Shown here piece after piece: positions 144-16,009 of a stretch of 33,596 bases of DNA. Source of the DNA: a virus; IMG/VR virus record IMGVR_UViG_3300005264_000030, positions 1 to 33,596 of that record. One strand, 5' to 3'. A model generated the notes under the pieces. The model was not told where the DNA came from, did not search any database, and saw only the letters and a program-made list of their open reading frames with translations. The position numbers and the translations under genes are program-made. Every line of letters starts with the position of its first letter. The first letter of the stretch is position 1.

Positions 144-371
144 TTATCCTAACGTATTTCTTCTTGACCAACTAGCGGCACAATCATTAATCCATTTCAT
201 GTCTTTTTTTGTCAACAAGTTTAAATTATTTTTCATTTGTTTTGCTTTTTTATAATCTGAATGTTTTTTACCCGCTGAAGAAAGTATTATATCAAGATTG
301 TGCTTAATATTTTCTTTTGGTGTTAATTTTTTAATTAATTTACTTTCTAACAATCGCTTAAAGTTATTCAT
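144..371 (-). CDS. Small protein with capsid-targeting leader (putative internal head protein)
   Basis: This is a 75-residue basic protein. It starts with MNNFKRLLE, which fits the T4 capsid targeting sequence pattern and ends in an L-L-E prohead-protease-type site after residue 9. A strong ribosome binding site (AAGGAG, 7 bases upstream) supports the start. The remainder is Lys-rich (KLIKKLTPKENIKHNL) with no recognised domain. A small, basic body behind a cleavable leader is what T4 internal proteins IPI-IPIII look like, so an injected internal protein is the best guess. It sits 10 bases downstream of the ligase-like gene in the same operon. The leader is seen; packaging is inferred. Confidence 0.7.
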   Translation of the reverse strand: MNNFKRLLESKLIKKLTPKENIKHNLDIILSSAGKKHSDYKKAKQMKNNLNLLTKKDMKWINDCAASWSRRNTLG

Positions 372-381
372 ATTTCTCCTT

Positions 382-1590
382 TTATTTAAATGTTCCCATT
401 ATATTGTTCATGATATTCAATGGTGCGAATGTCCCTGTAAGTTTCATGAACTGATTTTTCCAAAAAAAGGTAATTCCTTCTTCGCCTGCAATCTTATCGA
501 TACCACCAGCACCTTCAAGTCTTTTAAGTTCATGTGAGAGTTTTTTAAGAGCTTCAGGATTTTTAGTATTTTCTATATCTTTTAAAGTTTTCACATAGTT
601 GGCTCGAAGTTTCTGAACAGTTTTGTCTGGATTCAACACCATAAACTGCTTTAAGTTCTTTAAGATATTTGCTCCAAGTCTTAGTATAATAACTTCTATG
701 TCTAACATCATCTCTTTAACATGTTCTTTGAGGTTCTTTTCAAATGACTCAATAAACTTAAGGTTTTTACCACTATAATCTTTTTTGATCATTTTAATAT
801 TAACACTTTTATCACCGATACCCCATCTTCTTGCGAGTCTTTCATCTTCTATCCCATTCTTCTTTAAAACGTTTCTCATGAAAGCAATTCGATAATCGTT
901 AAGGTTATCATTGTCTTTCAATTTAAACTGCTTTTGGACGTTTTTAACCATGTTTAAGAGGTCTTTTTTCTGCTTATCTAAATCTGGAAGTGGCTCTAAT
1001 TTAACTGCTTGTAGTGGTTGAATATCATAAGTATTAGGACGAACAGGAGAGTTTTCGATCCATTTAGCAAGTATGTCTCCGTCAGACTGATTATCTTCAC
1101 CTATAGGTTTTCCATCAATCCCATATTCTTTAGTACCATGAAATCTTAGCTGATTACTTCCATATGATATAAGATTCTCAGCTTCAGTGTGCATTACCTC
1201 TACAGACATGAATTTCTTACCGTTTTTGAACATCTTATCAATTTTATCTTGTGAAACACCTGTAAAAGTAGTTTGAAGGTCGTTAACCGCTTGAACATAA
1301 GCGTCTCCAATACCTCTACCACTGAACTTAGTTGCTAATTCATTGACGGTAAGAGACTCTTGTCCATAATTCTTTAAGTGTTTAGGACTTCGAGCAACAC
1401 GGACTCTACCATTAATTACAGTAAAAAGGAGATTTGCACCATCGGTCTTTAACTTAACTCTCTCTAATTTACCTGTCAGAGCGTCGTTAATGAAGTCCTT
1501 AATATCCTTAAAGGAATAATTAAGTTCATAAAAATTTGCAAGGTGTCCGTAACCGCCACCTTCTGTAAGGAATTGTTTGAATCGTAACAT
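382..1590 (-). CDS. KxDG-motif ligase/nucleotidyltransferase-fold protein with capsid-targeting leader
   Basis: The 402-residue protein starts at ATG 1590, not at the upstream in-frame ATG at 1617. The 1590 start puts MLRFKQFLTE at the N-terminus, matching the leader of its neighbours, and gives a one-base gap to the preceding stop instead of an overlap. Residues 48-51 are KTDG in KLKTDGANLLF, the motif I pattern of covalent nucleotidyltransferases (DNA/RNA ligases, capping enzymes). A central VEVMHTEAENL segment may be motif III. The C-terminal EEGITFFWKNQFMKLTG may be motifs IV-V (EG..F and K-L). T4-like phages carry a family with a GGxxGHxxxxxE start and a TGTFAPLN C-terminus, which this resembles. 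I infer an RNA or DNA end-joining/adenylylating enzyme that is packaged and injected. Substrate unknown. Confidence 0.7.
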   Translation of the reverse strand: MLRFKQFLTEGGGYGHLANFYELNYSFKDIKDFINDALTGKLERVKLKTDGANLLFTVINGRVRVARSPKHLKNYGQESLTVNELATKFSGRGIGDAYVQAVNDLQTTFTGVSQDKIDKMFKNGKKFMSVEVMHTEAENLISYGSNQLRFHGTKEYGIDGKPIGEDNQSDGDILAKWIENSPVRPNTYDIQPLQAVKLEPLPDLDKQKKDLLNMVKNVQKQFKLKDNDNLNDYRIAFMRNVLKKNGIEDERLARRWGIGDKSVNIKMIKKDYSGKNLKFIESFEKNLKEHVKEMMLDIEVIILRLGANILKNLKQFMVLNPDKTVQKLRANYVKTLKDIENTKNPEALKKLSHELKRLEGAGGIDKIAGEEGITFFWKNQFMKLTGTFAPLNIMNNIMGTFK

Positions 1591-1591
1591 T

Positions 1592-2047
1592 TTAATAATC
1601 GTTTTTTTGAATTGCAAATTTATCAGTCTTTAGTATTTTTTTACAGAAGTCTTCAATATCAGCTTCATATCCAATACCAGTTATAAAATTATAAAGTGTA
1701 TCGTTATCATCAATAAAACTATTAGCATGTCTTCTTAAATTTTTAAGTTGATTTAAATCAACCCAACCAAGATCTACTTCCCACCATTTTTTAGTTTTAT
1801 TATCATGAACTAAAAGACCAGAATTTATAAAAAGATTATAATCGTATGCTTTTTGTTGTAATTTTCTTTCATCTTCAGGTGATATTTCTTTATACGGTGC
1901 TGCAAAATGATATTTTCCTGATATTTCATCATTATCCAAAACAACACTCTTAAAATAATTAACAGCTTTAGAAACCGTCTTTTTAAACTTCTTTCCAATT
2001 GTCGCTTCATTTAAATCTTGTTCTAACAACCTTTTAAAATTGTTCAT
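1592..2047 (-). CDS. Unknown protein with capsid-targeting leader
   Basis: This 151-residue protein begins MNNFKRLLE followed by QDLNEA, so there are two possible (L/I)-x-E cleavage sites, after residue 9 and at LNE. The leader is nearly the same as that of the 75-residue protein at 144-371. The body is a mixed alpha/beta-looking sequence with KKWWEVDLGWVDL and FITGIGYEADIEDF segments. I do not recognise a family or catalytic motif. It lies 7 bases after the Pol-beta nucleotidyltransferase stop and one base before the ligase-like start, so it may be translationally coupled to both. Packaging is inferred from the leader only. Confidence 0.7.
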   Translation of the reverse strand: MNNFKRLLEQDLNEATIGKKFKKTVSKAVNYFKSVVLDNDEISGKYHFAAPYKEISPEDERKLQQKAYDYNLFINSGLLVHDNKTKKWWEVDLGWVDLNQLKNLRRHANSFIDDNDTLYNFITGIGYEADIEDFCKKILKTDKFAIQKNDY

Positions 2048-2054
2048 ATTAATC

Positions 2055-2957
2055 CTATATATACTGTTTAAGTTCTTTAGGGACCATCATACCAGCTTCT
2101 TTACATAATTCTACTACTCTCTTAAATATTTCTTTTTTCTTATCTTTGTGAATAAAGTCTTTAGAATTATTTATAATTTCGTAAAGTGTCTCAAAAGAAT
2201 ATGCATGACCTACGTTAAACTTTGGACCGAGTAACATCGTTATGATTTCATCTGGCACTTTAGTAATAATTTTAGATTCGATAGTCTTATGGTTCTTAAG
2301 GACTTGACCCTTTTTACCTATTTTACTTTGCATACCTCTCATTAATCCTTTACTTAAGTCAAAGAAATTCTTTTTCCATATGACAGATACTTCAATTCCT
2401 TCTTTATCTAAACGTTTTTCTACAACTCTTACATCCATTACATTAGCGATTGCAATTAATAAAAAGTTTCTGTAAGTACCTTTATAGTTACTTCTCCAAC
2501 TCTCTGGACTCCAATAGACAAACTTCGAGTACTCAAGATCTTGAACGAGCATCAAGTCAAGTTGAACATATTCAGCTCTTTGTAGTTCATCAACGTTCTT
2601 TATAGGCCACGCTACTGAAATGATACGAAAACCTTTAGACGTTGAATAATCTGTAATAATATCAATATCTTCAACAACACTTTCAACATATTTAATCATA
2701 TCATCTTCAGTATTAATTTGAGGTAGTGTAAAAAGAGCAGATACGTCTATTGCAAGATCAATATCACCTGAAGTCTCACCTGAACGTTTCTTACCAGTAG
2801 ATCCAAGAACTGCAACCGCTTCTTTAGGTATGTTAAGAGCTGGAAGGAGTTTCTTATAGATGTCTTTTAAAGTCTCTTTAACATTATCTTGATTTATTGG
2901 AACTGTTGAAGATACTGCATGACCTCCTTCAAAAATATATTGTTTAAATCTTTTCAT
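2055..2957 (-). CDS. Pol-beta superfamily nucleotidyltransferase with capsid-targeting leader
   Basis: The 300-residue protein starts MKRFKQYIFE, a leader ending in I-F-E, and has a Shine-Dalgarno (AAAGGA) upstream. Residues 51-70 contain LGSTGKKRSG and GDIDLAI, the GS..DxD signature of minimal nucleotidyltransferases of the Pol-beta fold (G52-S53, D65, D67). A third acidic residue probably lies in YVQLDLMLVQD. Known families with this signature add nucleotides to RNA or proteins, or make oligonucleotide signals. The C-terminal half is helical and unrecognised. The start overlaps the end of the cytidylyltransferase gene by 14 bases. With a ligase-fold protein and a CCA-enzyme-like protein in the same block, RNA end repair is an attractive but unproven role. 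Confidence 0.75.
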   Translation of the reverse strand: MKRFKQYIFEGGHAVSSTVPINQDNVKETLKDIYKKLLPALNIPKEAVAVLGSTGKKRSGETSGDIDLAIDVSALFTLPQINTEDDMIKYVESVVEDIDIITDYSTSKGFRIISVAWPIKNVDELQRAEYVQLDLMLVQDLEYSKFVYWSPESWRSNYKGTYRNFLLIAIANVMDVRVVEKRLDKEGIEVSVIWKKNFFDLSKGLMRGMQSKIGKKGQVLKNHKTIESKIITKVPDEIITMLLGPKFNVGHAYSFETLYEIINNSKDFIHKDKKKEIFKRVVELCKEAGMMVPKELKQYI

Positions 2958-3531
2958 ATTTTCCTTTAAATAGTTTGAGAATTTTAGGTTCTATCTTACC
3001 ATAAATCTTCTTGAATGCTTCTTCTATGTCACCTTGAAGTAGTTCACGAACTTTAGTTCCACTGAAAGGTTTCCCATCAAGGAGATTTTTAGTGTTCTTA
3101 GGTATCACAAACACGTACCCTCGTTCTCTAAAAGGTTCAGTTGCTTTACCTCTCTTATATATTTCAAAATATTTGCCTTTTACAAGTCTGTCAGCATCTT
3201 TTTTTCCAACTCCAGTTACTATAGAAGTGTCATTAGAAAACTTAGAGGTTATTTCTTTAGGACTATAAGGGTTTTTAACTTGTACTATATTGTCTTTAGG
3301 AATGTCAGGAAACATAGTAATGATAATCTTCTTTTTCTCTTTAAAATTAAAAGGTGATTTATCATTGTCAGTACTATTAGAAGTACCTATATATACGTTA
3401 TCTTTACCAAATTCTTTAACAAGTTCACTATAAGATTCATAATGTCCTGGATGAAAAGGTTGAAATCTTCCTGAATATATTGAGACGATTCTATGTTTTT
3501 TTTCAAATATAAATTTTTTAAATTTTTTCAT
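2944..3531 (-). CDS. HxGH cytidylyltransferase/NMN adenylyltransferase-like enzyme with capsid-targeting leader
   Basis: After the leader MKKFKKFIFE, the 195-residue protein has SIYSGRFQPFHPGHYESY with HPGH at residues 27-30, the HxGH nucleotide-binding motif of the class I cytidylyltransferase superfamily (NMNAT, PPAT, FAD synthase, glycerol-3-phosphate cytidylyltransferase). A C-terminal SGTKVRELL near residue 158 is the matching (S/T)xTxxR motif. The GRFQPFHxGH form is typical of NMNAT/NadM-like proteins, so NMN or a related mononucleotide is the most likely substrate. I cannot exclude another one. An injected NMNAT would act on host NAD+ metabolism at the start of infection. It overlaps its downstream neighbour by 14 bases. 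Confidence 0.8.
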   Translation of the reverse strand: MKKFKKFIFEKKHRIVSIYSGRFQPFHPGHYESYSELVKEFGKDNVYIGTSNSTDNDKSPFNFKEKKKIIITMFPDIPKDNIVQVKNPYSPKEITSKFSNDTSIVTGVGKKDADRLVKGKYFEIYKRGKATEPFRERGYVFVIPKNTKNLLDGKPFSGTKVRELLQGDIEEAFKKIYGKIEPKILKLFKGKYEKI

Positions 3532-3532
3532 A

Positions 3533-4312
3533 TTATTCTTTTATTTTATCAAATTCATAAGAAAATATTTCTGTTATTGGAACATTTTTAAATTTTTTAT
3601 CACTAAGAAAATCAAACAGTTTATGTCTTTTAAGATAATTATCGTTATCTTTAATTATGTAAATGTGCTTTATTTTGATTTTATTAATAACTAATTCATT
3701 ATAAGTAGAATCTTTAATATATGATCTAGAAATGCCCATAATAAAATTAAAAACCGTTTTATAGTATTTTTTAGACATTTCTTCAATAACATCAAAGAAT
3801 ATTTTAATTAATTTATTCTTATCTTTTTTATTTTCAAGTTCTTGAAATTTTGTCCATTGGAAATCATCTTGTAACTCATTACTAGTAAATTTCTTAAAAG
3901 CTACTTTTCTTACATTTTTAATAAATTTAATCATATCATCACGATCATTAAGATAACCTAAATCTATCCATCTTCTTCCATGATCATCAACATTGCTATA
4001 TATATCATAATCACCTTTAGCAAGTAAATTACCAGATATTTTTACGACCAAACCACCAGTAGACTCTATCCCAAATTTAATATTAGAACTATTTGCTTTT
4101 GTAAAAACACTTATACTTTTTTTAGATCCTTCGATTTTAAACAGATTATTTAAATATTTTGGACTTGTTATATGATAAGCAATTACTCTGGGTAATTCCT
4201 TAAATATCCTTTCTAACATTGGAGTTGATAGCGGATAATTATAACTATTGAATATATAATCATTTACAGAAACTCCTATATATTCTTTTAAATGTTGTTT
4301 AAAGGATTTCAT
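3533..4312 (-). CDS. Putative ADP-ribosyltransferase-like protein with capsid-targeting leader
   Basis: The 259-residue protein begins MKSFKQHLKE (L-K-E site). Residues 43-49 read VIAYHIT, followed by SKKSISVFTKA (66-73) and, in the C-terminal third, DSTYNELVI before a beta-strand-like KIKIKHIYII. This order, an aromatic-His strand, an S/T-rich strand and an N-E-L-V-I strand, resembles the three motifs of ADP-ribosyltransferase-fold enzymes. A central GGLVVKISGNLL and DHGRRWIDL also recur in my memory of phage proteins of this shape. The assignment is weak and rests on motif order only. T4 packages the ADP-ribosyltransferase Alt the same way, which makes the reading plausible. Confidence 0.5.
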   Translation of the reverse strand: MKSFKQHLKEYIGVSVNDYIFNSYNYPLSTPMLERIFKELPRVIAYHITSPKYLNNLFKIEGSKKSISVFTKANSSNIKFGIESTGGLVVKISGNLLAKGDYDIYSNVDDHGRRWIDLGYLNDRDDMIKFIKNVRKVAFKKFTSNELQDDFQWTKFQELENKKDKNKLIKIFFDVIEEMSKKYYKTVFNFIMGISRSYIKDSTYNELVINKIKIKHIYIIKDNDNYLKRHKLFDFLSDKKFKNVPITEIFSYEFDKIKE

Positions 4313-4318
4313 ATTTTT

Positions 4319-6475
4319 TCATATATTAATAGTTCCAGCAACATCTCCTGTTAATTCAAATCCAATCATTTCCAGCATATAACTTAATCCGTTTTTAGCA
4401 TAAGATTTGATTATATTTATAACTTTAAATAAAATAATCTTAATTATATCAAACCACGATACTGCAACATCTTTAACTTTTTTAATTCCGTTTTTAATAT
4501 CAGTTATAATTCCTTCATTCAATAGATTTTCTTTATATTCTTGAATTGTTTCAGTTATAACATTATTAACGTCATTTTCAAAAGTAGTTGTTTTATTACC
4601 ATTTAAAATTGTATCTAACAAATAACTGTATTTATTACAATTTTCAGGAAGCATTCTAAATGCTGTTGCTGAGAAATTTCCAGAACTTTTAGTACTAACA
4701 TTAATTTTTACTCCTTTATAATTTTTTTCAGCCCACGCTATATCAATTGTAGGATTAGAAGTAAATTTACCTATATAGTTTCCTGATTTACCTTGAATAT
4801 CAAATTTTAAGAATTGTGAAGCGATGGCCCATTTATTAATATTGAATAAGAGTTGGCTTTCAATATCTATAGATGTTGAATGTTTGTCAATAATCTCTCC
4901 ACCGAATTTATAACATCCACTAGCCGCTTCAAAAACTGCATATTTTTTTAATTCATTTGAACTTTCTATTAATCTAATAAATTCGTCTCGAACCTTTCTA
5001 TTGTTCAAAACAAATTCAATAACTTTAGCAGTTTCTTGTCTAATATCATCTTCTTTTATAGTTGATATATATTCTTTTACATAATCTTCACTATTTAATA
5101 AAACATTTAGTCCTTTAATCCCTTTAAGTAAAGTTACATGTTTTTGGGATAATTTTTTTATATTCCAAACGAAATTTTTAGGTTTTTTTTGTGTTAATTT
5201 AACTTCTCCACCTTGATATTTAATATGTTTTAATAACTCATTTTGAAATAATTTATCCATTATTGAGACTTCTTTAGTTTTTTGTGTTCCATCTTTTTTA
5301 GGTTTACCTACATTTATGATTACTGAATTTAGTCCATTGTCATTTAATTCTTGAATTAATTCAACCATTCTTTTTTCATAAAACCAGTTATCAAACGTTT
5401 TTGAAACTTTTCCAACACCTATACCTGCTTTACTTAAAGTGTCAAGTTTAATAGTTTTAAAATTTTTATCTATAGAATCTATTATCTGTTTTGTTAAATT
5501 CGTTATTTTATCAGTTCTATCTTCTAAACTAATCAATTGTAATGCACCATAAAAAACTCCTCTAGTATCATTCTCAAGACCACTCATAAGTTGTGATCCT
5601 CCTTCTTTTTTCATTGAGAATTTATATTTTCCATTTTCTTTAATATATACATCAGTTTTTGGAGTTCCATCTTTGTATGGATTAACAGAATTTACACTAT
5701 CCGATCCTGTATGTATGAAAGTTCCTTTCAATCCAGCAGATTGCATTTCTTTAACAATTTTAATACCTGCTTCTCTTATCAAAGGTTCAAATAACATGAA
5801 TTTATTTAATTGAGCACCTTTCACTCCACCTTTACTCATAGCTTCATTTAAATGATTGACTGTAATATTTTCAGGACTGTCTATTAATTTAGGATCTAAA
5901 TTAGAATACACAACAATAGCCAATTCCCAATCAGCACCAGTTGGTTCTCCGCTAACTTGACCGCCAAAGGATTCATCTTTTTGAATTGAATTAATACCTA
6001 TTAAACCAATGTTCGTATTAAATAATCGTTTATTTTGATTACCGTCAGATCCAATTTTTATAACTAAATCATTTAAAATTTCTTTCGATGGATTGTTAAA
6101 ATAATCATTAATTACATTAAAAACGTCGTCTATAGTGTAAGTTGGATCACTTTTCTTTTTCCCAGGAAAACTAGTATTACCGTTAATTAAATATTTTTCA
6201 AGATTTTTTGAAGATAAAATCGCTTTAGCAATATCTTCATCTTTGTTTTCAATCCACAATTCTAACATACGATGAAGAATAGATGTAATTGTAGGATTAT
6301 CATTGAGATATGTTAATATACCACCTTTATCATTTTTTAAAGGTTTTCCCTCTTTAATAAATTGTAATATCGATAACGCTCGTTTTTTACCTTCATTCGG
6401 ACCTTTTTTAAAATTTTTATTAACCAGACTAAAATTTATAGTAGATTCATTTAAATATTGCTTAAATCTTTTCAT
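4319..6475 (-). CDS. Large protein with capsid-targeting leader and possible PD-(D/E)xK-like motif
   Basis: At 718 residues this is the largest product of the block. It begins MKRFKQYLNE (L-N-E site) behind a good Shine-Dalgarno (GGGAG), with the start 14 bases inside the end of the hydrolase gene. Residues 178-190 (PTGADWELAIVVY), 273-278 (KTDVYI) and 285-291 (KFSMKKE) have the spacing of an E...D...(S/E)xK nuclease core, and GGSQLMSG follows. This is a suggestion, not a family assignment. The C-terminus (roughly 665-710) is hydrophobic and amphipathic (WFDIIKIILFKVINIIKSY), which could be a membrane-active or packing helix. If packaged, it would be by mass the dominant internal protein encoded here. 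Confidence 0.65.
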   Translation of the reverse strand: MKRFKQYLNESTINFSLVNKNFKKGPNEGKKRALSILQFIKEGKPLKNDKGGILTYLNDNPTITSILHRMLELWIENKDEDIAKAILSSKNLEKYLINGNTSFPGKKKSDPTYTIDDVFNVINDYFNNPSKEILNDLVIKIGSDGNQNKRLFNTNIGLIGINSIQKDESFGGQVSGEPTGADWELAIVVYSNLDPKLIDSPENITVNHLNEAMSKGGVKGAQLNKFMLFEPLIREAGIKIVKEMQSAGLKGTFIHTGSDSVNSVNPYKDGTPKTDVYIKENGKYKFSMKKEGGSQLMSGLENDTRGVFYGALQLISLEDRTDKITNLTKQIIDSIDKNFKTIKLDTLSKAGIGVGKVSKTFDNWFYEKRMVELIQELNDNGLNSVIINVGKPKKDGTQKTKEVSIMDKLFQNELLKHIKYQGGEVKLTQKKPKNFVWNIKKLSQKHVTLLKGIKGLNVLLNSEDYVKEYISTIKEDDIRQETAKVIEFVLNNRKVRDEFIRLIESSNELKKYAVFEAASGCYKFGGEIIDKHSTSIDIESQLLFNINKWAIASQFLKFDIQGKSGNYIGKFTSNPTIDIAWAEKNYKGVKINVSTKSSGNFSATAFRMLPENCNKYSYLLDTILNGNKTTTFENDVNNVITETIQEYKENLLNEGIITDIKNGIKKVKDVAVSWFDIIKIILFKVINIIKSYAKNGLSYMLEMIGFELTGDVAGTINI

Positions 6476-7013
6476 TTTTCTCCCATATTTTTAAATGTGT
6501 GACTATTTCAGATATTAACGCTTTTTTATCTTTGTTTAAGGATCTGTTAAGGTTATTCAAGATATAGAAGGTTTCGTCAATATATTTTTTTCTAAATTTT
6601 TCTGAAGCAAATCTAAAATCACTGACATTATCTAATCTATCAGCAAGTTTGATAAATAAAGCACTGTCGGACATTGAGTTCATTTTCTTCAATAGATATT
6701 TTGCTTTACCTATCTTAACTTGATTTTTTTTAACAGAGGTGAGTTCTTTAACTAAACTTGCTACTCTAGGTCCGAAAGTAGCTTCAAGTTCTTTAAAAGA
6801 AGTTTTAGTATCTTCGCAAGTATCGTGCAAATATCCAGCGGCTATTATTTCTTCGTCTTTGGTAAATCGTCGTAAAATATCTGCTACTCTAGACGGATGT
6901 TTAAAATAAGGTTCGTTAGAAAATTTACGATGTTGATAAAAATGTTTATCTTGAGCAACTGACGCTGCATGTTGTGAAAGTGTCATTTCTAATAATTGTT
7001 TAAAAGATCTCAC
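6462..7013 (-). CDS. MESH1/SpoT-like HD-domain (p)ppGpp hydrolase with capsid-targeting leader
   Basis: I start this gene at GTG 7013 and not at the upstream ATG 7031. The GTG has AGAGGAAG just upstream, makes a GTGA overlap with the preceding endonuclease stop, and yields MRSFKQLLE, the same leader as the neighbours. The 183-residue product has the HD hydrolase set of RelA/SpoT-type enzymes: H28-R, KHP at 38-40, the LHDTCEDT motif with H63-D64 and E67-D68, and LADRLDNV with D125. There is no synthetase or TGS domain, and the length matches single-domain small alarmone hydrolases. Expected role: removing (p)ppGpp or related alarmones in the host. Delivery with the DNA is inferred from the leader. 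Confidence 0.85.
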   Translation of the reverse strand: MRSFKQLLEMTLSQHAASVAQDKHFYQHRKFSNEPYFKHPSRVADILRRFTKDEEIIAAGYLHDTCEDTKTSFKELEATFGPRVASLVKELTSVKKNQVKIGKAKYLLKKMNSMSDSALFIKLADRLDNVSDFRFASEKFRKKYIDETFYILNNLNRSLNKDKKALISEIVTHLKIWEKNEKI

Positions 7014-7858
7014 AGTCTTCCTCTTTTCCATTTTGCATTATTTGGATTTTTATAACTTAATATAGATTTTTGTCCATTATTCCACCAATGTTTACCTTTA
7101 TTTTGTTTATTATCAACTGTTTTTTGTAATTTTCCTTTCTTCCATGGACCTTCATATTCTTTAATGATATTTGGGTTATCATAACCTAAATAATTTATTT
7201 TACCATTATTCCAATATTTTTTACCTTTGTTAAAACAGTGTTTTTTATATAATTCTAGTTTAGTTAATTTTTTATTATTTTGTTTTCTAGATATGGCTGC
7301 CTTTTCAGCACGATTTTGTGCATTTGTTTTTCCATTTTTTTCAATTTTTCTTAAATTAATTTTTAATTTTAATGATGCGTTTTCTTGTATTGTAAGTCCA
7401 TTTTCTTGTATTGTGTTTTGAACAGTTTTTATTTTTTTAATAATAGCATTTTCACGTATTGAAAGTCCATTATCCAATATCGTGTTTTTTGCGGTTTTTG
7501 CACCTTTTAAAGATTTATTTTTCAACCAATTAACTCTTTCTTGTTTAGACATTGCGGAATAAATTACACTATAATCATTTCCACCAGGAATCATATTATA
7601 ATATTCATTAGATTCTACGGCTTTATTATACCAAATATGAAAAATTTCAGCTAAATTTAAATCATATGAATCTTGACACCATTCTAAAAGTTTAACTTTA
7701 AAATTTTCTTTTCCATATTTTTTAATTGCGTTTTTTAAATGTTTTCCTGAACCCAAATATGTTTCATTGAAAAAATTGCATTTCTTTTGCCCTATATATT
7801 TTTTATTATTAACAACATTTTCAGTTATATAAACATATCCATATTTAAACGATTCCAT
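7010..7858 (-). CDS. GIY-YIG homing endonuclease (Seg-like, free-standing)
   Basis: The 282-residue protein has an N-terminal GIY-YIG nuclease: YGYVYITENVVNNKKYIGQ at 6-24, then YLGSGKHLKNAIKKYGKENF. Next come repeated N-G-L-(S/T)-I-x-E-N-A helical units and two C-terminal copies of a W-N-N-G-x repeat (GKKYWNNGKINYLGYDNPN and GKHWWNNGQKSILSYKNPN), probable DNA-binding modules. Such genes are mobile and cut at or near their own insertion point. Its stop overlaps the GTG start of the (p)ppGpp hydrolase gene, so it was inserted right at that gene's 5' end and may be translationally coupled to it. Its own start MESFK is discussed in the findings. Confidence 0.9.
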   Translation of the reverse strand: MESFKYGYVYITENVVNNKKYIGQKKCNFFNETYLGSGKHLKNAIKKYGKENFKVKLLEWCQDSYDLNLAEIFHIWYNKAVESNEYYNMIPGGNDYSVIYSAMSKQERVNWLKNKSLKGAKTAKNTILDNGLSIRENAIIKKIKTVQNTIQENGLTIQENASLKLKINLRKIEKNGKTNAQNRAEKAAISRKQNNKKLTKLELYKKHCFNKGKKYWNNGKINYLGYDNPNIIKEYEGPWKKGKLQKTVDNKQNKGKHWWNNGQKSILSYKNPNNAKWKRGRL

Positions 7859-7966
7859 ATTATTTTAAAGAACTTTTATTTATTTCATCTAGTTTTATGT
7901 ATTTATGATTATCAATTTCTTTCGTTTCAATTAACCCTTTACGATTTCATTATTTTTTAAAAAAAT
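7859..7966. other. Intergenic spacer with possible late promoter and gene remnant
   Basis: This 108-base AT-rich gap lies between the membrane protein gene and the endonuclease gene. On the minus strand, an AATAAATA at 7884-7877 sits about 20 bases upstream of the endonuclease start, close to the spacing seen for the clear late promoter at 11802-11795. A short minus-strand open stretch (GLIETKEIDNHKYIKLDE...) ends near 7864 and has no start codon. It could be the tail of a gene lost when the endonuclease inserted. Both readings are weak. Confidence 0.3.
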
Positions 7967-8284
7967 TTATATTTCGTCTTCTACCCATTTTTTAAAATTT
8001 CTATATTCTTTAATATCAACTTTAGATTTATCTAAGTTATTAAGTTTTTTATGTAACATATCAATCTCTCGTATATGTAGTAATGATTGTTCTTCAAGAG
8101 CTTCATTGATAGATTCAAGTTCTTTTGTATTATTTTGAATTTGAAGTTGATAAATAACACCTGTAGAGACTATTACTGCAACTACTATAATTATTCTTAT
8201 TACCGTACTTATTCCAAATTCTAATTTAGTAACGTCAACTCTTCTATCTTCGCCTTTATATTCTTCCGTTTTGATATTTTTCAC
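7967..8284 (-). CDS. Single-pass membrane protein with coiled coil
   Basis: The start is GTG at 8284-8282, preceded by GGAG, and forms a GTGA overlap with the stop of the CCA-enzyme-like gene. The 105-residue protein has a charged N-terminal region (KTEEYKGEDRRVD), one hydrophobic helix at about 24-46 (GISTVIRIIIVVAVIVSTGV) and a C-terminal coiled coil rich in Glu/Leu/Lys. This layout is seen in inner-membrane spanins and other small phage membrane proteins, but no partner gene is visible. It has no capsid-targeting leader. The function is unknown, and a lysis or envelope role is only a guess. Confidence 0.65.
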   Translation of the reverse strand: MKNIKTEEYKGEDRRVDVTKLEFGISTVIRIIIVVAVIVSTGVIYQLQIQNNTKELESINEALEEQSLLHIREIDMLHKKLNNLDKSKVDIKEYRNFKKWVEDEI

Positions 8285-9720
8285 AGTATCTCCTTAATAT
8301 ATTTGTAGATTTTTTTTGTATCTTTAGGATTAATATTATTATCTAAAATCCACGTTATAGTATTATTTATAACATTTCCCAATTCTTTTGAAGGTTTTAA
8401 GCCCGTAAGTTTCATTATAATTTTACCATTAACAACTTTACGTAACTCTTCTTGGGCTTTTTTGTCTTTATACTTTAAAGTTAATTCTTCAACTTTCTTT
8501 AAGATATTTTTCCATACGTTTTTATCATATAAATGTTTTCGAGCTTTATCATCAACCATAGCAACATTATATAGAACATCCCAATTATCATCTTGAATTA
8601 ATTTCATAATTTTACTGTTAGACATATTGAAGAAATCGTGCATTTTCATATGATTACCGGCAGCAAATATAAGAGCTTTACGAGTTTTATTATCTAATTT
8701 AAGTCTATCAGCAATAGAATCAATAATATTCATAGATTCTTTCGCATGACCATGATATGTATGTTTACCTTTATCGTCTAGAGCATATGTATTAATTTTT
8801 CCCGCATCATGTAAAAGAACTCCAAGGTTAATTATAGGATCTTTTAGTTTATTTGCTTTAAGAGCTGCAATAGTGTGATCAAATACTGTTCCTTCTTTAC
8901 CATCTTTAGATCCTTCAGGATGATCAGATATTGAATGAAAAAAGTCTTTTTGTTTTACTATTTCTGGAAGAATGATCTCTAACAGTCCCGATTGATCTAA
9001 TTTTATAATAGCATCTGCAAATTTAGTACCGGATTGACTAGCCATTTTTACAAGTTCTTGAGTTATTCTTTCAGCTGCAACTTTAGAAATATTGCCGGAA
9101 CCTTTCTTAATTGCTTGCATAGTTTTTTCATCTATATCAAAACCTAAACGACTTGAGAACCTTATAGCTCTAAGCATACGAAGGTAGTCTTCAGAAAACC
9201 TCTTTTCAGGATCGCCTACAGTCTTTATTACTTTATCTTTAATTGCTTTCATTCCTTCAAAGTGATCTATAATATTACCTTCAGAGTCTATTGCCATTGC
9301 GTTTATTTGTAAATCTCTTCTACTTGCATCATCTTTAAAATTACTTACAATAACTACAGAGTTTGCTCCTTTACCCTGAAGTTCTGTTTGGTAAGAATCT
9401 TTCCGAAATTGAGCAACCTCGAAGTCGAATCCTTGGTGTTTAACAACGACTATTCCAAAATCTTTGTTATTTCCGATATCAAATGTTTTAAAAAGGTCTT
9501 CAATCTTACTTATAGGAATATTGGTAGCTATATCAATATCTTTAGGGTCTTGTCCAAGTATAATATCACGTACAGCACCACCAACTATATAAACATCTCC
9601 ATATTTTTCAAGTTTCTTTAAAATATTAATTGCTGCTTTAAGCATAGGTATTCTGTTTACATAAGACTTAAAATCTTTAAGTTGACTTGCTTCTACTAAA
9701 TATTGCTTGAATGTTTTCAT
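8281..9720 (-). CDS. CCA-adding enzyme/poly(A) polymerase family nucleotidyltransferase with HD domain and capsid-targeting leader
   Basis: The 479-residue protein starts MKTFKQYLVE (L-V-E site). The class II tRNA nucleotidyltransferase head is clear: VYIVGGAVRD at 43-52, DIDIAT at 61-66 (catalytic D61/D63), and the RNA-binding signature EDYLRMLRAIRF near residue 180. An HD phosphohydrolase domain follows (LLHDAGKINTY, HGHAKESMN, FAAGNHMKMHD). The architecture is that of bacterial CCA-adding enzymes with an HD domain (2',3'-cyclic phosphodiesterase/phosphatase activities in E. coli Cca). A packaged copy could repair host or phage tRNA ends early in infection. That role is inferred, but the enzyme family is well supported. 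Confidence 0.88.
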   Translation of the reverse strand: MKTFKQYLVEASQLKDFKSYVNRIPMLKAAINILKKLEKYGDVYIVGGAVRDIILGQDPKDIDIATNIPISKIEDLFKTFDIGNNKDFGIVVVKHQGFDFEVAQFRKDSYQTELQGKGANSVVIVSNFKDDASRRDLQINAMAIDSEGNIIDHFEGMKAIKDKVIKTVGDPEKRFSEDYLRMLRAIRFSSRLGFDIDEKTMQAIKKGSGNISKVAAERITQELVKMASQSGTKFADAIIKLDQSGLLEIILPEIVKQKDFFHSISDHPEGSKDGKEGTVFDHTIAALKANKLKDPIINLGVLLHDAGKINTYALDDKGKHTYHGHAKESMNIIDSIADRLKLDNKTRKALIFAAGNHMKMHDFFNMSNSKIMKLIQDDNWDVLYNVAMVDDKARKHLYDKNVWKNILKKVEELTLKYKDKKAQEELRKVVNGKIIMKLTGLKPSKELGNVINNTITWILDNNINPKDTKKIYKYIKEIL

Positions 9721-9764
9721 ATTTTTAAGTAAAGAAATTCTCTAAGAATTATTCATATTATTTC

Positions 9765-10340
9765 TTAATATTTAAGTGTTTTAAGAAAGTTTTTAACTTC
9801 AAGATCTGTCATATCTCCAAGGTCGTTATAATGTTCAGGAACAGTATATGATACATCTCCAAGTTTTGCTAATTTCCTTTCCGCTTTATCATTGTCATAT
9901 ATCACTATCTTTTTTTGAGTTAATATAGACAACCAAGGCTTGATTCATTTAGGGTTGTTGGCAAAAACGGCAATACCTGGAAGTCCTTGATTGTGAATTT
10001 TAATAATATCAAAAATACCTTCAGTAATGAAAAGAACTTTATCGGTATGTTTAACAGTTTCAAGTTCCCATACAGCAATTTCGTTTATCTTATCTTGTTT
10101 AGTTACGTAAGAAAAATATCTCATCATTGCTTTCATTTCATCAGTCGTCATTTTCTTTGCTTGATCTGTTTTTTGATGAAATGCCTTATCAACTTGAGGA
10201 TTGTAGTTAACATATCCTACTAGTTTTCCCGATAAATTGTAAAGTAAAAAACTAGTATAATTGTGTTCTTTATCAATAACTGCTTTAGTTTTTTCAAGAT
10301 CCACTCCTCGAGTCTTTAAACGTAATATGATATCGTTCAT
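9765..10340 (-). pseudogene. Toprim-domain protein interrupted by one in-frame TGA
   Basis: The frame opens at ATG 10340 and runs 131 codons to a TGA at 9947-9945 (..FANNPK-stop). The same frame then continues without a break for about 60 codons (IKPWLSILTQKKIVIYDNDKAERKLAK..) to TAA at 9767-9765. The first part holds the Toprim glutamate motif (VLFITEGIFD), and the part after the TGA holds the D-x-D motif (IYDNDKAERKL). A truncated protein would therefore lack the metal site. Changing the TGA to TGG (Trp) would restore a 191-residue protein. Nonsense mutation, readthrough and sequencing error are all possible. Other genes here use TGG for Trp and TGA as a stop, so a recoded genetic code is unlikely. 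Confidence 0.7.
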
Positions 10341-10373
10341 TTCATTCTCGAAAACATATTTTTTTAAAAGTTT

Positions 10374-10538
10374 TCATTTTATAACTTTTTTAAGTTTCTT
10401 TTTAACTTCCTCTTCAATTGTTGACATAACTACATTTTCTACTTCTTTTGCAACCTTATCAGTTACTTCTTTTTGTATTTCTTCAATTAAATTTTCGGTA
10501 GATTTTTTAAAAAACAATTTTTTAATAAATTTAAACAT
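10374..10538 (-). CDS. Small amphipathic, charged protein
   Basis: A 54-residue frame has a strong ribosome binding site (AAGGAG, 6 bases before ATG 10538). It begins MFKFIKKLFFKKS and continues as a Glu/Lys/Val-rich helical stretch (IEEIQKEVTDKVAKEVENVV), probably a coiled coil or amphipathic helix. It ends 33 bases before the Toprim gene, in the same direction. The start has Phe and Lys but no (L/I)-x-E end, so I do not count it as a capsid-targeting protein. It was too short to be caught by a length filter, but the site and codon pattern support a real gene. Function unknown. Confidence 0.65.
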   Translation of the reverse strand: MFKFIKKLFFKKSTENLIEEIQKEVTDKVAKEVENVVMSTIEEEVKKKLKKVIK

Positions 10539-10601
10539 ATTTTCTCCTTTTTATAATGTTTTTAGGTCTTGGTTTTTTTAATAAACGTTATCTACTTATC
10601 T

Positions 10602-11108
10602 TTATTTTTTCATCCATCCTTTAATATATTTTTTATTAACATGTTTAGGTAATCTTATTTCAGTTATAGCATAATATTCCGAATCTGACAATCCTGAATT
10701 TAAGTAAAGATCTTTATTTGTTAATTTTTCTTTATATGATTTAACTTGACCTCGCATTTCAGCCATTTTAGGTAAGAAATCTTTTTGAGGTATTTTAAGT
10801 ACTATAACAATTCGATCTTCTGAAGGTACATGAATAGCTTTACTACCAGCAGATCTAAATGAAGTTTCTCCACCGCTCATTGACGCATATCCAAATGCTG
10901 TAAAAGGTTCTATTGCAAGTGATACCCAATTTTTAGTTGGTCCACTTGAAGGTGCATCTATCCCCTTTTTAAGAATACTTTTTAAATTATCCTTGTGAGT
11001 ACCGTGATAGAAAGTTACTGGATCTGAATCAAGCCACCATCCAATATTAGGATCATTGTTCCATAATATTTGTTTAGATTCATGAAGATATTCTTTAAGT
11101 GTTTTCAT
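10602..11108 (-). CDS. ADP-ribosyltransferase/PARP-like protein with capsid-targeting leader
   Basis: The 168-residue protein starts MKTLKEYLHE (L-H-E site). The motifs of the H-Y-[E] branch of ADP-ribosyltransferase-fold enzymes appear in order: VTFYHGTHKDNLKSIL with YHGT at 34-37 and LKKGI after it, WVSLAIEPFTAFGYA at 61-75 (candidate NAD-binding Tyr), and SEYYAITEIRLPKHV at 143-157 (candidate catalytic Glu). The same fold also covers RNA 2'-phosphotransferase (Tpt1/KptA), which shares the YHGT-type start, so that remains an alternative. Packaged ADP-ribosylation of host proteins would mirror T4 Alt. The gene overlaps the end of the upstream gene by 14 bases. Confidence 0.7.
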   Translation of the reverse strand: MKTLKEYLHESKQILWNNDPNIGWWLDSDPVTFYHGTHKDNLKSILKKGIDAPSSGPTKNWVSLAIEPFTAFGYASMSGGETSFRSAGSKAIHVPSEDRIVIVLKIPQKDFLPKMAEMRGQVKSYKEKLTNKDLYLNSGLSDSEYYAITEIRLPKHVNKKYIKGWMKK

Positions 11109-11775
11109 ATTTTATTTGATATTTTTTAAATTTTTTAATAATGTAATTCCAATCATCTATATTGTAATCATTGTTATCAGTCACTTTCCATTTTATTCTT
11201 GTATCTCCAATCATTTTTAAATCAACATCTACAAAAAGTGATTTAAGTAATTCTCTATTAAACCATGATTTTCTTAAAGATTTTTTTAAGATTAATGTTT
11301 CAATTTCACAATTATATTTTGGAGTTAATTTTGCTGAAAAAAGAGAATGTGTATTTGGATTGAAGTTTTTATTAGTATATTTATCAACTATTCCATCCAT
11401 TGTAGAACCTCTTACCCATATAACATCTCCATTAGTGAATATAGAAGAAAATGGATAAAATTCTGAAAGGGTTTCATTCATTATTCTAGCAAGACTTACT
11501 AAAAGGTTAAAGTGAGATTTTTGATAATTGTAAATAGATTTTCCTGCCGTATTTATTTTTCTTATTTTAATGTCAGTGTCATATGTACTGTAACCATCAA
11601 CGAATACAATGTAATTACCATAATCTTTATTCGTCAATCTTACTTGTCCTGCAATTCCATATTCATCAAATACATAATCACCTTTTTGTAATAATTTTTT
11701 TTCATCGGCACTAACATATCCTACTTTGGATATCCAGAAGTCACTAAATTTTGGTTTTGAATTTTCTATTAACAT
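11095..11775 (-). CDS. Unknown protein, first gene of the minus-strand late block
   Basis: This 226-residue protein is the first gene after the TATAAATA late promoter on the minus strand. It has no capsid-targeting leader (starts MLIENSKPKFSDFW). An early stretch, KGDYVFDEYGIAGQVRLTNKDYGNYIVFVDGY, looks like a small beta-barrel of SH3/KOW type. The rest is unrecognised. The stop lies 14 bases inside the ADP-ribosyltransferase-like gene, so the two are probably translated together. Function unknown. Confidence 0.65.
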   Translation of the reverse strand: MLIENSKPKFSDFWISKVGYVSADEKKLLQKGDYVFDEYGIAGQVRLTNKDYGNYIVFVDGYSTYDTDIKIRKINTAGKSIYNYQKSHFNLLVSLARIMNETLSEFYPFSSIFTNGDVIWVRGSTMDGIVDKYTNKNFNPNTHSLFSAKLTPKYNCEIETLILKKSLRKSWFNRELLKSLFVDVDLKMIGDTRIKWKVTDNNDYNIDDWNYIIKKFKKYQIKYENT

Positions 11776-11794: not shown

Positions 11795-11802
11795 TATTTA
11801 TA
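11795..11802 (-). promoter_or_regulatory. T4-type late promoter (TATAAATA) driving the minus-strand block
   Basis: Read on the minus strand, the sequence is a perfect TATAAATA, the T4 late promoter element recognised through gp55. It lies about 20 bases upstream of the ATG at 11775, so transcription would start just before the gene. A gp55 homologue is encoded at 14563-15039. Late timing fits proteins that must be present during head assembly. Confidence 0.7.
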
Positions 11803-11827: not shown

Positions 11828-11863
11828 CAATAAAGAATCTAATATTATTTATAAAGAAAATTA

Positions 11864-12492: not shown

Positions 12493-12654
12493 ATGAAAAT
12501 AGAAGAAATAATAGGTGAATATCTACCAACAGAGACTATAGAAATACTTAATGAAAAATACAAAGAATATTTCAAGCAAAACTTAAAAATAATACATGAA
12601 AGACATAAGATTAATAAAGAAAAATGCAACGAAAATAGAAGTACAAACAAGTGA
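12493..12654 (+). CDS. Small ORF overlapping the uvsW start
   Basis: A 53-codon frame begins MKIEEIIGEYLPTETIEILNEKY, helical and charged, and ends in NENRSTNK. It overlaps the first 59 bases of uvsW. The uvsW ATG at 12596 has no ribosome binding site of its own, so translation coupled to this small ORF would explain how uvsW is expressed. No clear Shine-Dalgarno precedes the small ORF either, which lowers confidence. It occupies the place where T4-like phages carry small uvsY-associated ORFs, but I cannot show homology. Confidence 0.45.
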   Translation: MKIEEIIGEYLPTETIEILNEKYKEYFKQNLKIIHERHKINKEKCNENRSTNK

Positions 12655-13558
12655 AGAAATTTCAAAAGAACTAACTTTGAAATTTTCAACTAGACCAGAA
12701 GGATATACTTTCATGCCCACTTATAGACAAGGTGTATGGGACGGTTGGATTCGTTTTTATAAATCAAATTGTATACCTATTGGATTATATCATGAAGTAA
12801 TAAAATTTGCAAGAGATAAAAAATATTCAATCGATGTTAAGTTTGATGATTTGTTAGGTTTAAAGAAAGACGAATTTATTGAATTTATTAAATGTCTTGA
12901 TTTACCAGAGCATTTTGAAATGAGAGAGTATCAAATTGATGCAGCATACGATTGTATTAATGATACTAAAAAGTGTGTTAAAGCGAATACTGCTGCAGGG
13001 AAGTCTCTTATAATGTACTATATCATACGGTTTATGACTTTAGAAGAGAAAAAATCGTTGATTGTTGTTCCTACTACTTCTTTAGTTGAGCAATTGTATA
13101 AAGATTGGAAAGATTATGGATGGAAAAGTATAGATGATTATGTGACTAAAATATATTCAGGAAAATTTAAAGATTATACTAAATCTGTTACAATCGTTAC
13201 TTGGCAATCATTGATTAAAGATCTTAAAGTTCTTAAGTCTTTTGACACTTTAATGGTCGATGAGTGTTTAGATGGCGATACTTTAATTGAAACGCCGTTT
13301 GGCAAGAAAAAAATTAAATATTTAAAATCTGGAGATGATGTTATTTCTTATAATAGAAAAACTAAGAAATTTGAAAATGATAAAATTTTAGATGTTTATG
13401 AAAATTTAAATATTTCTGAGAATGAAGATATGTATAAATTAACTTTAAATGATCATTCTACAATAAAAATAACCGGCAATCATAAAGTTCTTACTAATAA
13501 CGGTTATGTAGAAGTTAAAAATTTAACTGAAAACGATGAAATAATTTCTTTTTTTTAA
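12596..13558 (+). CDS. uvsW: UvsW helicase, N-terminal half fused to N-intein (split gene)
   Basis: Residues 1-223 align with the T4 UvsW N-terminus: RPEGYTFMPTYRQGVWDGWIR corresponds to T4 ADGYRFNPRFRYGNWDGRIR, MREYQIDAAYDCI is the Q-motif region, NTAAGKS at 131-137 is Walker A, and VVPTTSLVEQL and VTWQSLIKDL follow. The protein reaches VDE of the DECH box (motif II) and then becomes an intein N-fragment from Cys224 (CLDGDTLIETP) to the stop. UvsW is an RNA-DNA/branched-DNA helicase that unwinds R-loops and controls late origin use. Residues 224-320 are the intein. The product must be trans-spliced to the protein at 13605-14525 for helicase function. Confidence 0.9.
   Translation: MKDIRLIKKNATKIEVQTSEEISKELTLKFSTRPEGYTFMPTYRQGVWDGWIRFYKSNCIPIGLYHEVIKFARDKKYSIDVKFDDLLGLKKDEFIEFIKCLDLPEHFEMREYQIDAAYDCINDTKKCVKANTAAGKSLIMYYIIRFMTLEEKKSLIVVPTTSLVEQLYKDWKDYGWKSIDDYVTKIYSGKFKDYTKSVTIVTWQSLIKDLKVLKSFDTLMVDECLDGDTLIETPFGKKKIKYLKSGDDVISYNRKTKKFENDKILDVYENLNISENEDMYKLTLNDHSTIKITGNHKVLTNNGYVEVKNLTENDEIISFF
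13265..13555 (+). other. Split intein N-fragment in UvsW (97 residues)
   Basis: It starts with Cys1 in CLDGDTLIETPFG (block A) and contains IKITGNHKVLT near residue 70, the block B TxxH/NH type motif. The stop TAA at 13556 lies in a T-rich run (eight T). The other two frames also stop within the next 50 bases, so a one-base sequencing slip would not restore a continuous intein. Confidence 0.88.
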
Positions 13559-13604
13559 ATAGTCACATATATCTAAAATAAAATATATCAATATGAGAAA
13601 ATAA

Positions 13605-13709
13605 ATGCGTATTATAAAAAAGAAAAAAATAGAAAAATCTCAGAGAGTTTATAATCTTCACGTTCAAAATAATAACAACTATATTGCAAGTGGTATAGTT
13701 GTTTCAAAT
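13605..13709 (+). other. Split intein C-fragment in UvsW (35 residues)
   Basis: MRIIKKKKIEKS is followed by RVYNLHVQNNNNYIASG and VVSN, then the +1 Cys (13710-13712). This is a standard block F/G layout and the same break point as DnaE-type split inteins. The penultimate residue is Ser rather than the usual His, which is uncommon and may slow or alter Asn cyclisation. Confidence 0.85.
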
Positions 13710-14525
13710 TGTCATACTGCAAAATCTAAATCACTTCAAACAATATCAAAACAATGTAATAATGCTAAATGGCGTTTAGGGTTTTCGGGTACTTATCCAC
13801 AACCTTATACTGTTGATTGGTTAAGTATTGTTGGAAGTCTTGGTCCAATTAAACAATATACAACGTACGATAGTCTCAATAAAGCTGGACAAGTAAGTAA
13901 TCTTAAAATTAATAATTTGTTTCTTAAATGGAATAGAGAAATATGCAAAAATAACATATTGCAAAATTATAAAGAATATTCTAATGAGAATAAGTATATT
14001 GAAGGATTAAGAGATCGAATTAAGTTTATTGTAAAACTTGCAGATAGAATAAACGGAAATACTATCGTGTTATTTACACGAATTAAATATGGTAAGAAAC
14101 TTTATGAAATAACAAAACAATTTTCTGATAAAAAATGTTATTATATTTCAGGAGAGACTAAAACTGATTACAGAGAATTAATTAGAAGTCGAATGGAAAA
14201 AAGAAATGATGTAGTACTTTTTGCTAGTTACGGTACATTTGCGGCGGGTGTGAATATACGGAATGTTCATAATCTTATAATGGCTTCAAATTATAAAAGT
14301 CTTATTAAAGTAGTTCAAGCAATTGGAAGGGCTATAAGAATTTTAGATAATAAAGATGTTGCGACAATATATAATTTAATCGATGATTTGACGTTTGAAA
14401 TGAAGAATGGAGAGATTTATAAGAATTATTCAGTAAAGCATCATATAAAACGATTAAAGATATATAAAGATGAAGGTTTTAAAAATGTGAAGAACGTTTG
14501 GATCAAATTTGACAAATTGTTTTAA
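13605..14525 (+). CDS. uvsW: UvsW helicase, C-terminal half preceded by C-intein (split gene)
   Basis: The protein starts with a 35-residue C-intein and continues at Cys36 as CHTAKSKSLQTI, completing the DECH box. The rest aligns with T4 UvsW: WRLGFSGTYPQPY (T4 FKFGLSGSLRDG), TIVLFTRIKYGKKL, YYISGETKTDYRE, VLFASYGTFAAGVNIRNVHNLI (T4 IIVASYGVFSTGISVKNLHHVV) and VQAIGRAIR (motif VI). Joined to the N-half without the intein, the helicase would be 223 + 271 = 494 residues, close to T4 UvsW. Start ATG 13605 has only a weak purine stretch (GAGAAAA) upstream. No homing endonuclease lies between the halves. Confidence 0.9.
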   Translation: MRIIKKKKIEKSQRVYNLHVQNNNNYIASGIVVSNCHTAKSKSLQTISKQCNNAKWRLGFSGTYPQPYTVDWLSIVGSLGPIKQYTTYDSLNKAGQVSNLKINNLFLKWNREICKNNILQNYKEYSNENKYIEGLRDRIKFIVKLADRINGNTIVLFTRIKYGKKLYEITKQFSDKKCYYISGETKTDYRELIRSRMEKRNDVVLFASYGTFAAGVNIRNVHNLIMASNYKSLIKVVQAIGRAIRILDNKDVATIYNLIDDLTFEMKNGEIYKNYSVKHHIKRLKIYKDEGFKNVKNVWIKFDKLF

Positions 14526-15142: not shown

Positions 15143-16009
15143 ATGAAAAAATATACTTATATATACGGACTTAAAGATTCTAGAAAAGAATATGATTGTA
15201 TACGTTATATTGGAAAATCAGATAATCCTGAGAAACGTTTAATTTCTCATTTAAGATATGATTCGAAAAAGAAAAAAACATATAAAATTAATTGGATAAA
15301 AAAATTAGTAAAAGAGAATTTAAAACCTGAATTGGTTATTATTGAAAAAGTGTTAGATGATGAATGGGAAAATAGAGAAAAATATTGGATAAAATATTAT
15401 AGAAAAAAATATGGAAAACTAATAACTAATACATGTGATGGTGGAGGTAGAAATGTTTATTCTGGAGAAAATCATCCAATGTATGGAAAAAAACATACTG
15501 TTGAAGCTAAAAAGAAAATAGGAATTGCTTCAAAAAATAGAGAAAATATAGGTGATTGGTCTTTAGGTAAAAAAGGTAAACTAAATAATTGTTCTAAAAA
15601 TTTTTTATTTATATTAGAAGATGGAAGAAGATGTTTAGTTGAAGGAGAAATGCAAAAAGTTATTAAGAATGGTAAAATATCTTGGAGTATTTTAAATGAA
15701 ATTCGTAATTTTAAAAGAAAGAATTATAGAAAAATTTTATATATTTTAGACACTTATAATAGTGATAAATTATTTAATTTAATATCTATAGATGAGTTAA
15801 TATGTGCAATTACGTCTAAAAACCCATCAACTAAACCTTTAAGAAAACGTTACATTGTTTTTTTTAAAAATGGCAAAACGTTAAAAATATCAAATCTTAA
15901 AAGTTTTGCAAAAAATAATAATTTATCTTACGATTTATTATTGAAAATTAAAAATAATATAAAAGTCAAAAATAATAAAATATTAAAAATAGATAAAATA
16001 AATGAATGA
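15143..16009 (+). CDS. GIY-YIG homing endonuclease
   Basis: The 288-residue protein has the nuclease core YTYIYGLKD..IRYIGKSDNPEKRLISHL and WENREKYWIKYY. A NUMOD3-like segment (GENHPMYGKKHTVEAKKKI) follows, then a basic C-terminal region ending in SLKSFAKNNNLSYDLLLK, a helix-turn-helix-like NUMOD1 element. It is inserted between the gp55 and gp47 genes, and its last 8 bases overlap the gp47 start, so it disrupts nothing but probably couples its translation to gp47. A 103-base spacer before it shows no clear promoter. Confidence 0.88.
   Translation: MKKYTYIYGLKDSRKEYDCIRYIGKSDNPEKRLISHLRYDSKKKKTYKINWIKKLVKENLKPELVIIEKVLDDEWENREKYWIKYYRKKYGKLITNTCDGGGRNVYSGENHPMYGKKHTVEAKKKIGIASKNRENIGDWSLGKKGKLNNCSKNFLFILEDGRRCLVEGEMQKVIKNGKISWSILNEIRNFKRKNYRKILYILDTYNSDKLFNLISIDELICAITSKNPSTKPLRKRYIVFFKNGKTLKISNLKSFAKNNNLSYDLLLKIKNNIKVKNNKILKIDKINE

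Follow-up and report, generated by a model that had tools for sequence, protein, structure and literature searches.

Why do proteins with unrelated bodies begin with the same ten residues? The question is raised by a gene block on the minus strand of an uncultured, T4-like phage that is represented by a linear viral contig of IMG/VR (IMGVR_UViG_3300005264_000030). The window, that is, the whole stretch of DNA that was analyzed, comprises 33,596 bases with 28.7% G+C. Ten genes of the block, with starts from 371 to 11108, encode a common N-terminal leader, M-x-x-(F/L)-K-x-(Y/F/L/H)-(L/I)-x-E, in front of unrelated bodies. Very probably, this leader is a T4-type capsid-targeting sequence that provides for packaging, gp21-type cleavage, and injection of a mostly enzymatic cargo. 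The presence of tagged enzymes in virions is supported by published mass spectrometry on other phages; for the phage studied here, we infer packaging, cleavage, injection, and functions in the host. The reading of the block as a T4-type set of packaged proteins that is unusually rich in enzymes is well supported, although not proven.

A leader shared by unrelated proteins

The original prediction had listed ten starts that share a leader on unrelated bodies, each leader ending in an (L/I)-x-E site. All ten starts are right, and (L/I)-x-E terminates the leader in 10/10. Residue 4 is Phe in nine leaders and Leu in one, and residue 7 is Tyr, Phe, or Leu, with a single His in the protein starting at 4312 (genes are named here by their start coordinate). 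The Leu or Ile occupies position 8 and the Glu position 10, or 7 and 9 in the short form. Gene 7013 has a GTG start codon and a good Shine-Dalgarno sequence.

The leaders were counted with a loose pattern rule that requires a hydrophobic residue at position 4, a hydrophobic residue or His at position 7, and (L/I/V/M)-x-E at positions 8–10, or the corresponding form that is one residue shorter. The expected number of matches was computed from internal positions of the block's own proteins. The rule matches 10 of the 16 called genes in the block against 0.14 expected (Poisson tail 7e-16), and 0 of the 22 called genes in the remainder of the window, with none on the plus strand. As a control, the rule was applied to 50 kb of T4, where it found ipII and ipIII and gave two probable chance matches; it missed ipI, which begins MKTFKEFTSTTT (IPI N terminus MKTFKEF).

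The block spans 144–11775 on the minus strand, and leader genes are mixed with untagged genes, as follows.

144–371, minus: 75-residue leader protein (MNNFKRLLE)
382–1590, minus: 402-residue leader protein (MLRFKQFLTE); KTDG motif, distantly like DUF6267; homologues in three phages
1592–2047, minus: 151-residue leader protein (MNNFKRLLE)
2055–2957, minus: 300-residue leader protein (MKRFKQYIFE); nucleotidyltransferase-like GS..DIDLAID by eye; leaderless homologues in Lak and immuto phages
2944–3531, minus: 195-residue leader protein (MKKFKKFIFE); nicotinamide mononucleotide (NMN) adenylyltransferase-like/cytidylyltransferase-like
3533–4312, minus: 259-residue leader protein (MKSFKQHLKE); family tagged in four other contigs; perhaps an ADP-ribosyltransferase fold (weak)
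4319–6475, minus: 718-residue leader protein (MKRFKQYLNE); TPKTD..KK.GGSQ.MS region like a protein of contig L082; PD-(D/E)xK-like by eye
6462–7013, minus: 183-residue leader protein ((V)RSFKQLLE, GTG start); small alarmone (ppGpp) hydrolase-like HD domain
7010–7858, minus: GIY-YIG homing endonuclease, untagged, inserted in the block (domain by eye)
7967–8284, minus: 105-residue small membrane-type protein, untagged
8281–9720, minus: 479-residue leader protein (MKTFKQYLVE); tRNA CCA-adding-type nucleotidyltransferase with HD domain
9765–10377, minus: eleventh leader (MKTFKKYVFE if one A of an A7 run is disregarded) on a toprim-like open reading frame (ORF) with a one-base shift and an in-frame TGA
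10374–10538, minus: 54-residue ORF, untagged
10602–11108, minus: 168-residue leader protein (MKTLKEYLHE); perhaps ADP-ribosyltransferase-like (YHGT...L.SI...GI), weak
11095–11775, minus: 226-residue first gene of the block, without leader, no family match
11795–11802, minus: late-promoter-like TATAAATA, not above chance in the AT-rich window

The leader at 10377 has V-F-E as the equivalent of the cleavage site and is shifted by one base relative to the frame of its toprim-like body. The frame break is either a contig error or a real lesion. The tag stands on at least ten, and probably eleven, separate genes.

The residues held in common are those that matter in T4. For the packaging of IPIII, its first ten residues are enough; mutations have shown that residues 4 and 7 govern targeting and residues 8 and 10 cleavage, and the protease gp21 cuts after L/I-x-E (PMC9026906). 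Foreign proteins fused to a T4 leader are packaged at 20–200 copies and delivered (PMC9026906). The T4 internal proteins IP1–3 have only the leader in common, and the type IV restriction enzyme that is blocked differs from one protein to the next (PMC12373910).

Modularity and spread of the leader

The strongest new evidence for capsid targeting comes from alignments, in which the leader appears as a clean ten-residue prefix. In 2957, MKRFKQYIFE is followed by GGHAVSSTVPINQDNV, whereas the homologue in Flavobacterium phage immuto has a single Met followed by GGNVFSSTAPIKKEHI; at the junction, GGHAVSSTVPI after the Glu corresponds to GGNVFSSTAPI after the Met of the leaderless protein. The Lak phage homologues of 2957 align from residue 11 or 12. 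For 1590, the junction FLTE/GGGYGHL compares with LILE/GGSYGHL in LR756500, the latter behind a different leader. A cytidylyltransferase and the 1590 domain are fused in Mel-JY01 and LR756508, with IIAE/GGLGGHM at the Mel-JY01 join; in the window, they are separate genes with a leader each. Leaderless homologues begin where gp21-type cleavage is predicted.

The DUF6267 gene is untagged in cyanophages Syn1, P-HM2, and S-PRM1, and the NMN adenylyltransferase (NMNAT) gene is untagged in Syn1 and P-HM2. In phage Melnitz-3, both are tagged (DUF6267, MINFSKYITE/DKGGKNLHLEH; NMNAT, MKKFSEIIE followed by ARGDTAVFTFGR). Comparison of the leaderless Syn1 and P-HM2 genes with the tagged Melnitz-3 cassette shows that the same enzymes occur with and without the tag. 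Assignment of 1590 itself to DUF6267 was rejected, as it has no match to Pfam PF19782 and only weak profile similarity.

Two further N termini were observed. Relatives of the CCA-adding enzyme in marine T4-like IMG/VR contigs (L001–L017) mostly begin with MRINEVILHE, which ends in L-x-E and is perhaps an alternative ten-residue leader. In immuto (L023:6071-17723), several late-region proteins have a different common start, like MKKSQLRxIIKEAL, which may likewise serve in packaging.

A DNA pattern for MK-x-FKQY(L/F)xE occurs in at least 119 stretches in IMG/VR. Among the matches listed, the tagged bodies are 5'-nucleotidase-like proteins, cytidylyltransferases, adenylate kinase, DUF6267, the 4312 family, and many unknowns. 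Three to five tagged genes are clustered in contigs L035, L080, L108, L065, and L133. The 4312 family is tagged in L035, L047 (twice), L080, and L108. Part of 6475 resembles the L082 protein (E = 5e-9), and by eye L102 has a GGSQLMSG motif, as in 6475, behind a leader. A member of the gp21 protease family is encoded by 6 of 14 leader-bearing contigs, the three longest (138–167 kb) among them; its absence from fragmentary contigs is uninformative.

Tagged proteins in virions and alternative explanations

NMNAT-like or cytidylyltransferase proteins have been reported in CsCl-purified cyanophage virions, with the reason left open (PMC10665884, PMC9602691, PMC9146016). The N termini of these virion enzymes are tagged: MKNFSSFLTE in S-CREM2 ORF154, MKSFLQFLKE in S-SCSM1 ORF91, and MRFRQFIIE in S-SZBM1_140. 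All three phages also encode the protease. Further tagged proteins of the S-CREM2 virion are an S-adenosylmethionine (SAM) hydrolase (MKDFDSFLEE), an APH-like kinase (MKRFDAFLTE), and ORF13 (MKDLHSFLTE). Over the whole S-CREM2 genome, the rule matches 4 of 28 non-structural virion genes against 3 of 157 undetected genes (Fisher p = 0.011), and 1 of 24 structural genes; the three matches among undetected genes deviate from the canonical form. S-SCSM1 and S-SZBM1 were scanned for leaders in part of their genes; in S-SZBM1, the tagged protein 140 was detected in the virion, and the product of the neighboring leaderless DUF6267 gene 141 was not. The S-SCSM1 paper makes no mention of a leader or of targeting, and our literature search found no paper that prints such leaders.

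A Cas9-like nuclease in S-CREM2 virions (ORF12, L181:7704-10313) has a leader-like LRFASFMAE about 16 residues past the annotated start. This start is possibly misannotated, and the nuclease is a candidate for tagged cargo.

Several points weigh against a T4-type packaged set. Capsid genes are absent from the window; a search for a gp21-type protease or a T4-type core gave no match within the fragment, and controls of the same search likewise gave no match. Untagged genes (11775, 8284, 10538, and the GIY-YIG gene 7858) are interspersed in the block; because of these and of the homing endonuclease among them, "dedicated packaging island", as the locus had been called, is an overstatement. A "perfect late promoter" was also said to precede the block: TATAAATA does stand at 11795–11802, with a second copy at 11846–11853, but the window holds 9 such sites against 10.6 expected, and the late promoter alone is therefore no evidence. 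A gp55 homologue is encoded in the window, in which late-type sites occur at chance level. Caution is also due because a firm function is missing for about half of the tagged bodies.

In the proteomes, 24 of the 28 S-CREM2 non-structural virion proteins are untagged, and other entry routes must therefore exist. The proteome authors consider such enzymes possible carry-over. Tagged S-SZBM1 proteins 191 and 192 and a tagged 106-residue S-SCSM1 protein (gene at 44215) are outside the published virion lists. A small tagged family, MKxFKxF(L/M)SESVNISGDFNGNLY, is common to two cyanophages (L190:37311-38125, which is S-SZBM1 191 and 192, and L183:14215-14535) and is not virion-listed. These undetected proteins are small and may have been missed by proteomics, or the tag may be insufficient. 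The leader was accordingly rejected as a perfect predictor of virion presence.

The alternative that survives best, although improbable, is that the leader guides proteins to the prohead core, but most of them serve there as aids to the core or scaffold, are degraded or lost, and never reach the host. Such a role would agree with the small tagged proteins missing from virion lists, with cleavage of T4 core proteins by gp21 (PMC9026906), and with contig G006, in which leader genes 59354 and 59667 lie between gp21 (58725) and gp22/gp23 (60552, 61349). However, several of the bodies are enzymes of solid cellular families with no evident scaffold use, and the tagged NMNAT, kinase, and SAM hydrolase are still present in mature virions.

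It is less likely still that the leader directs proteins elsewhere, to the membrane, the tail, or a host compartment. A short N-terminal stretch could be a generic targeting helix, and in the predicted fold of 4312 (pLDDT 69) the leader stretch is helical. Yet the leader matches both the capsid-targeting residues and the gp21 site, the junctions fall at the Glu, and the product of the G006 leader gene 59354 is similar, from residue 1 on, to PHROG 4363, "internal virion protein".

We give very little credence to a nucleic acid signal for translation or recombination, or to shared gene ancestry, with no working peptide. The genes are adjacent and have start codons and A-rich surroundings in common. 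Against this, the leader codons differ synonymously (TTT/TTC, AAA/AAG, and TTA/CTT/TTG) while the residues hold, which argues for selection at the peptide level. The bodies are unrelated, the DNA upstream of the leader genes is dissimilar from gene to gene, and the 4312 family retains the leader on bodies that are only 24–32% identical to that of the window. Chance combined with an AT-rich, lysine-rich composition, for which the low G+C content might speak, is refuted by the counts in the block and in the remainder of the window.

T4-style capsid targeting, the reading put forward in the original prediction, is thus supported by the fit to the T4 residues, the modularity at the Glu, the occurrence of gp21 in leader-bearing contigs, the placement of the two G006 leader genes between gp21 and gp22, and the tagged virion enzymes.

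Predicted cargo, phage background, and known systems

Three bodies are assigned firmly by family. Protein 3531 matches Pfam PF01467 (1.8e-8) and PDB 2qjt (1e-6) and has an HxGH nucleotidyltransferase fold with NMNAT relatives; it is NMN adenylyltransferase-like, with NMN as its predicted substrate. Protein 7013 contains an HD_4 domain like the hydrolase domains of MESH1 and RelA (PDB 4yf1, 1e-18), with a predicted activity of the small alarmone hydrolase type. Protein 9720 combines class II head and RNA-binding domains (PDB 1miv, 2e-42) and is a CCA-adding-type enzyme, for which addition of CCA rather than poly(A) is predicted.

For the other bodies, the indications are weaker. A motif suggests that 2957 is a nucleotidyltransferase, and 6475 looks nuclease-like by eye. 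Proteins 4312 and 11108 are perhaps ADP-ribosyltransferases like T4 Alt, but neither has a significant sequence or fold match to that class; a Foldseek search with the 4312 fold gave nothing significant, although ADP-ribosyltransferases are numerous among its top matches. A search for relatives of 4312 in isolated phages found none. The predicted fold of 1590 was discarded because its alignment was too thin (pLDDT 32).

We propose that during head assembly the first ~10 residues would dock onto the prohead core by way of the hydrophobic residues 4 and 7. Cleavage after Glu-10 (or Glu-9) at (L/I)-x-E by a gp21-type protease would then free the native protein inside the head. Upon infection, the packaged proteins would enter the host along with the DNA and act before any phage gene is expressed, restoring NAD, repairing tRNA 3' ends, and lowering alarmone; they would also counter host defences. 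In a broader form, to which we incline with some reserve, T4-like phages in the sea and elsewhere would share the portable tag as a general code for loading. With it, the product of any enzyme gene could be made to enter the virion, and sequence would reveal what a phage loads. Here, it would load a preformed kit that is active ahead of phage transcription and serves NAD synthesis, tRNA end repair, alarmone removal, and perhaps also ADP-ribosylation and nuclease functions.

If this is true, a ten-residue tag predicts what many uncultured T4-like phages carry in their virions. NMNAT, CCA-adding enzyme, alarmone hydrolase, kinases, and nucleases that are annotated as "auxiliary metabolic" or "hypothetical" would be injected agents of the first minutes of infection, and the recurrence of NMNAT-like enzymes in cyanophage virions would be explained. 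Injected counter-defence could then be tested directly, and the leaders would serve as a collection of natural tags with which to direct proteins into phage heads.

The plus strand of the window carries the T4-type genes UvsY, UvsW, gp55, gp47, gp46, UvsX, and gp61 primase. UvsX is only ~34% identical to that of the best isolated phages, and the phage therefore represents a deep branch. Searches of IMG/VR with 1590, 6475, and UvsX found no close relatives, and an Rfam search of the window gave no match. The UvsW helicase gene (12596–14525, plus) is interrupted within an intein, with the N-terminal portion stopping at 13558 and the C-terminal portion starting from a separate ATG at 13605. Because every frame contains stops close to the gap, a naturally split intein seems a better description than a single frameshift. 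A DnaB-type helicase gene (23525–25516, plus) also holds an intein, its middle interrupted by four in-frame TAA codons (~24212–24352). Between gp46 and UvsX, an 859-residue repetitive protein (repeats EKEKNTLTCGTAAQTDMTG) and a related 204-residue protein are encoded at 18881–22074 (plus). At 29110–30564 (plus), a GIY-YIG domain and a thymidylate synthase gene are seemingly joined, either by fusion or by insertion of the domain, and further GIY-YIG ORFs were seen by eye at 7010–7858, 15143–16009, and 32929–33255. The end of the window (30561–32896, plus) holds an asparagine-synthetase-like gene followed by a pyridoxal phosphate enzyme-like gene (by eye).

Among known systems, the T4 proteins IPI, IPII, IPIII, and Alt likewise have a ~10-residue leader with hydrophobic residues 4 and 7 and (L/I)-x-E at 8–10 on unrelated bodies. 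The T4 cargo consists of small inhibitors and Alt, whereas here ten or eleven tagged genes in 11 kb include metabolic and RNA enzymes, with packaging inferred. A passage in PMC12373910 that cites Repoila 1994 gives at least ten internal-protein genes across the T-even group, and a large number of leader genes is therefore not unique to this phage. The NMNAT or cytidylyltransferase proteins found by virion mass spectrometry in S-CREM2, S-SCSM1, and S-SZBM1 belong to the enzyme class of 3531 and have the same leader type, but these cyanophages have one or a few tagged genes each. The ejection proteins of the phiKZ/SPN3US type are likewise numerous head proteins that a gp21-like protease cleaves after Glu, although the motifs are A/S-x-E and the propeptides are for the most part far longer (PMC5694885, PMC9026906). 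Methylophilales phage Melnitz-3 EXVC039M, a complete genome with gp21, has adjacent tagged DUF6267 and NMNAT genes akin to 1590 and 3531, but its tagged genes are fewer and their order is different; a literature search found no virion proteome for Melnitz-3. The kind of system is thus known from T4, and, so far as we have found, the new part is its enzyme-rich load and its wide, apparently unremarked spread.

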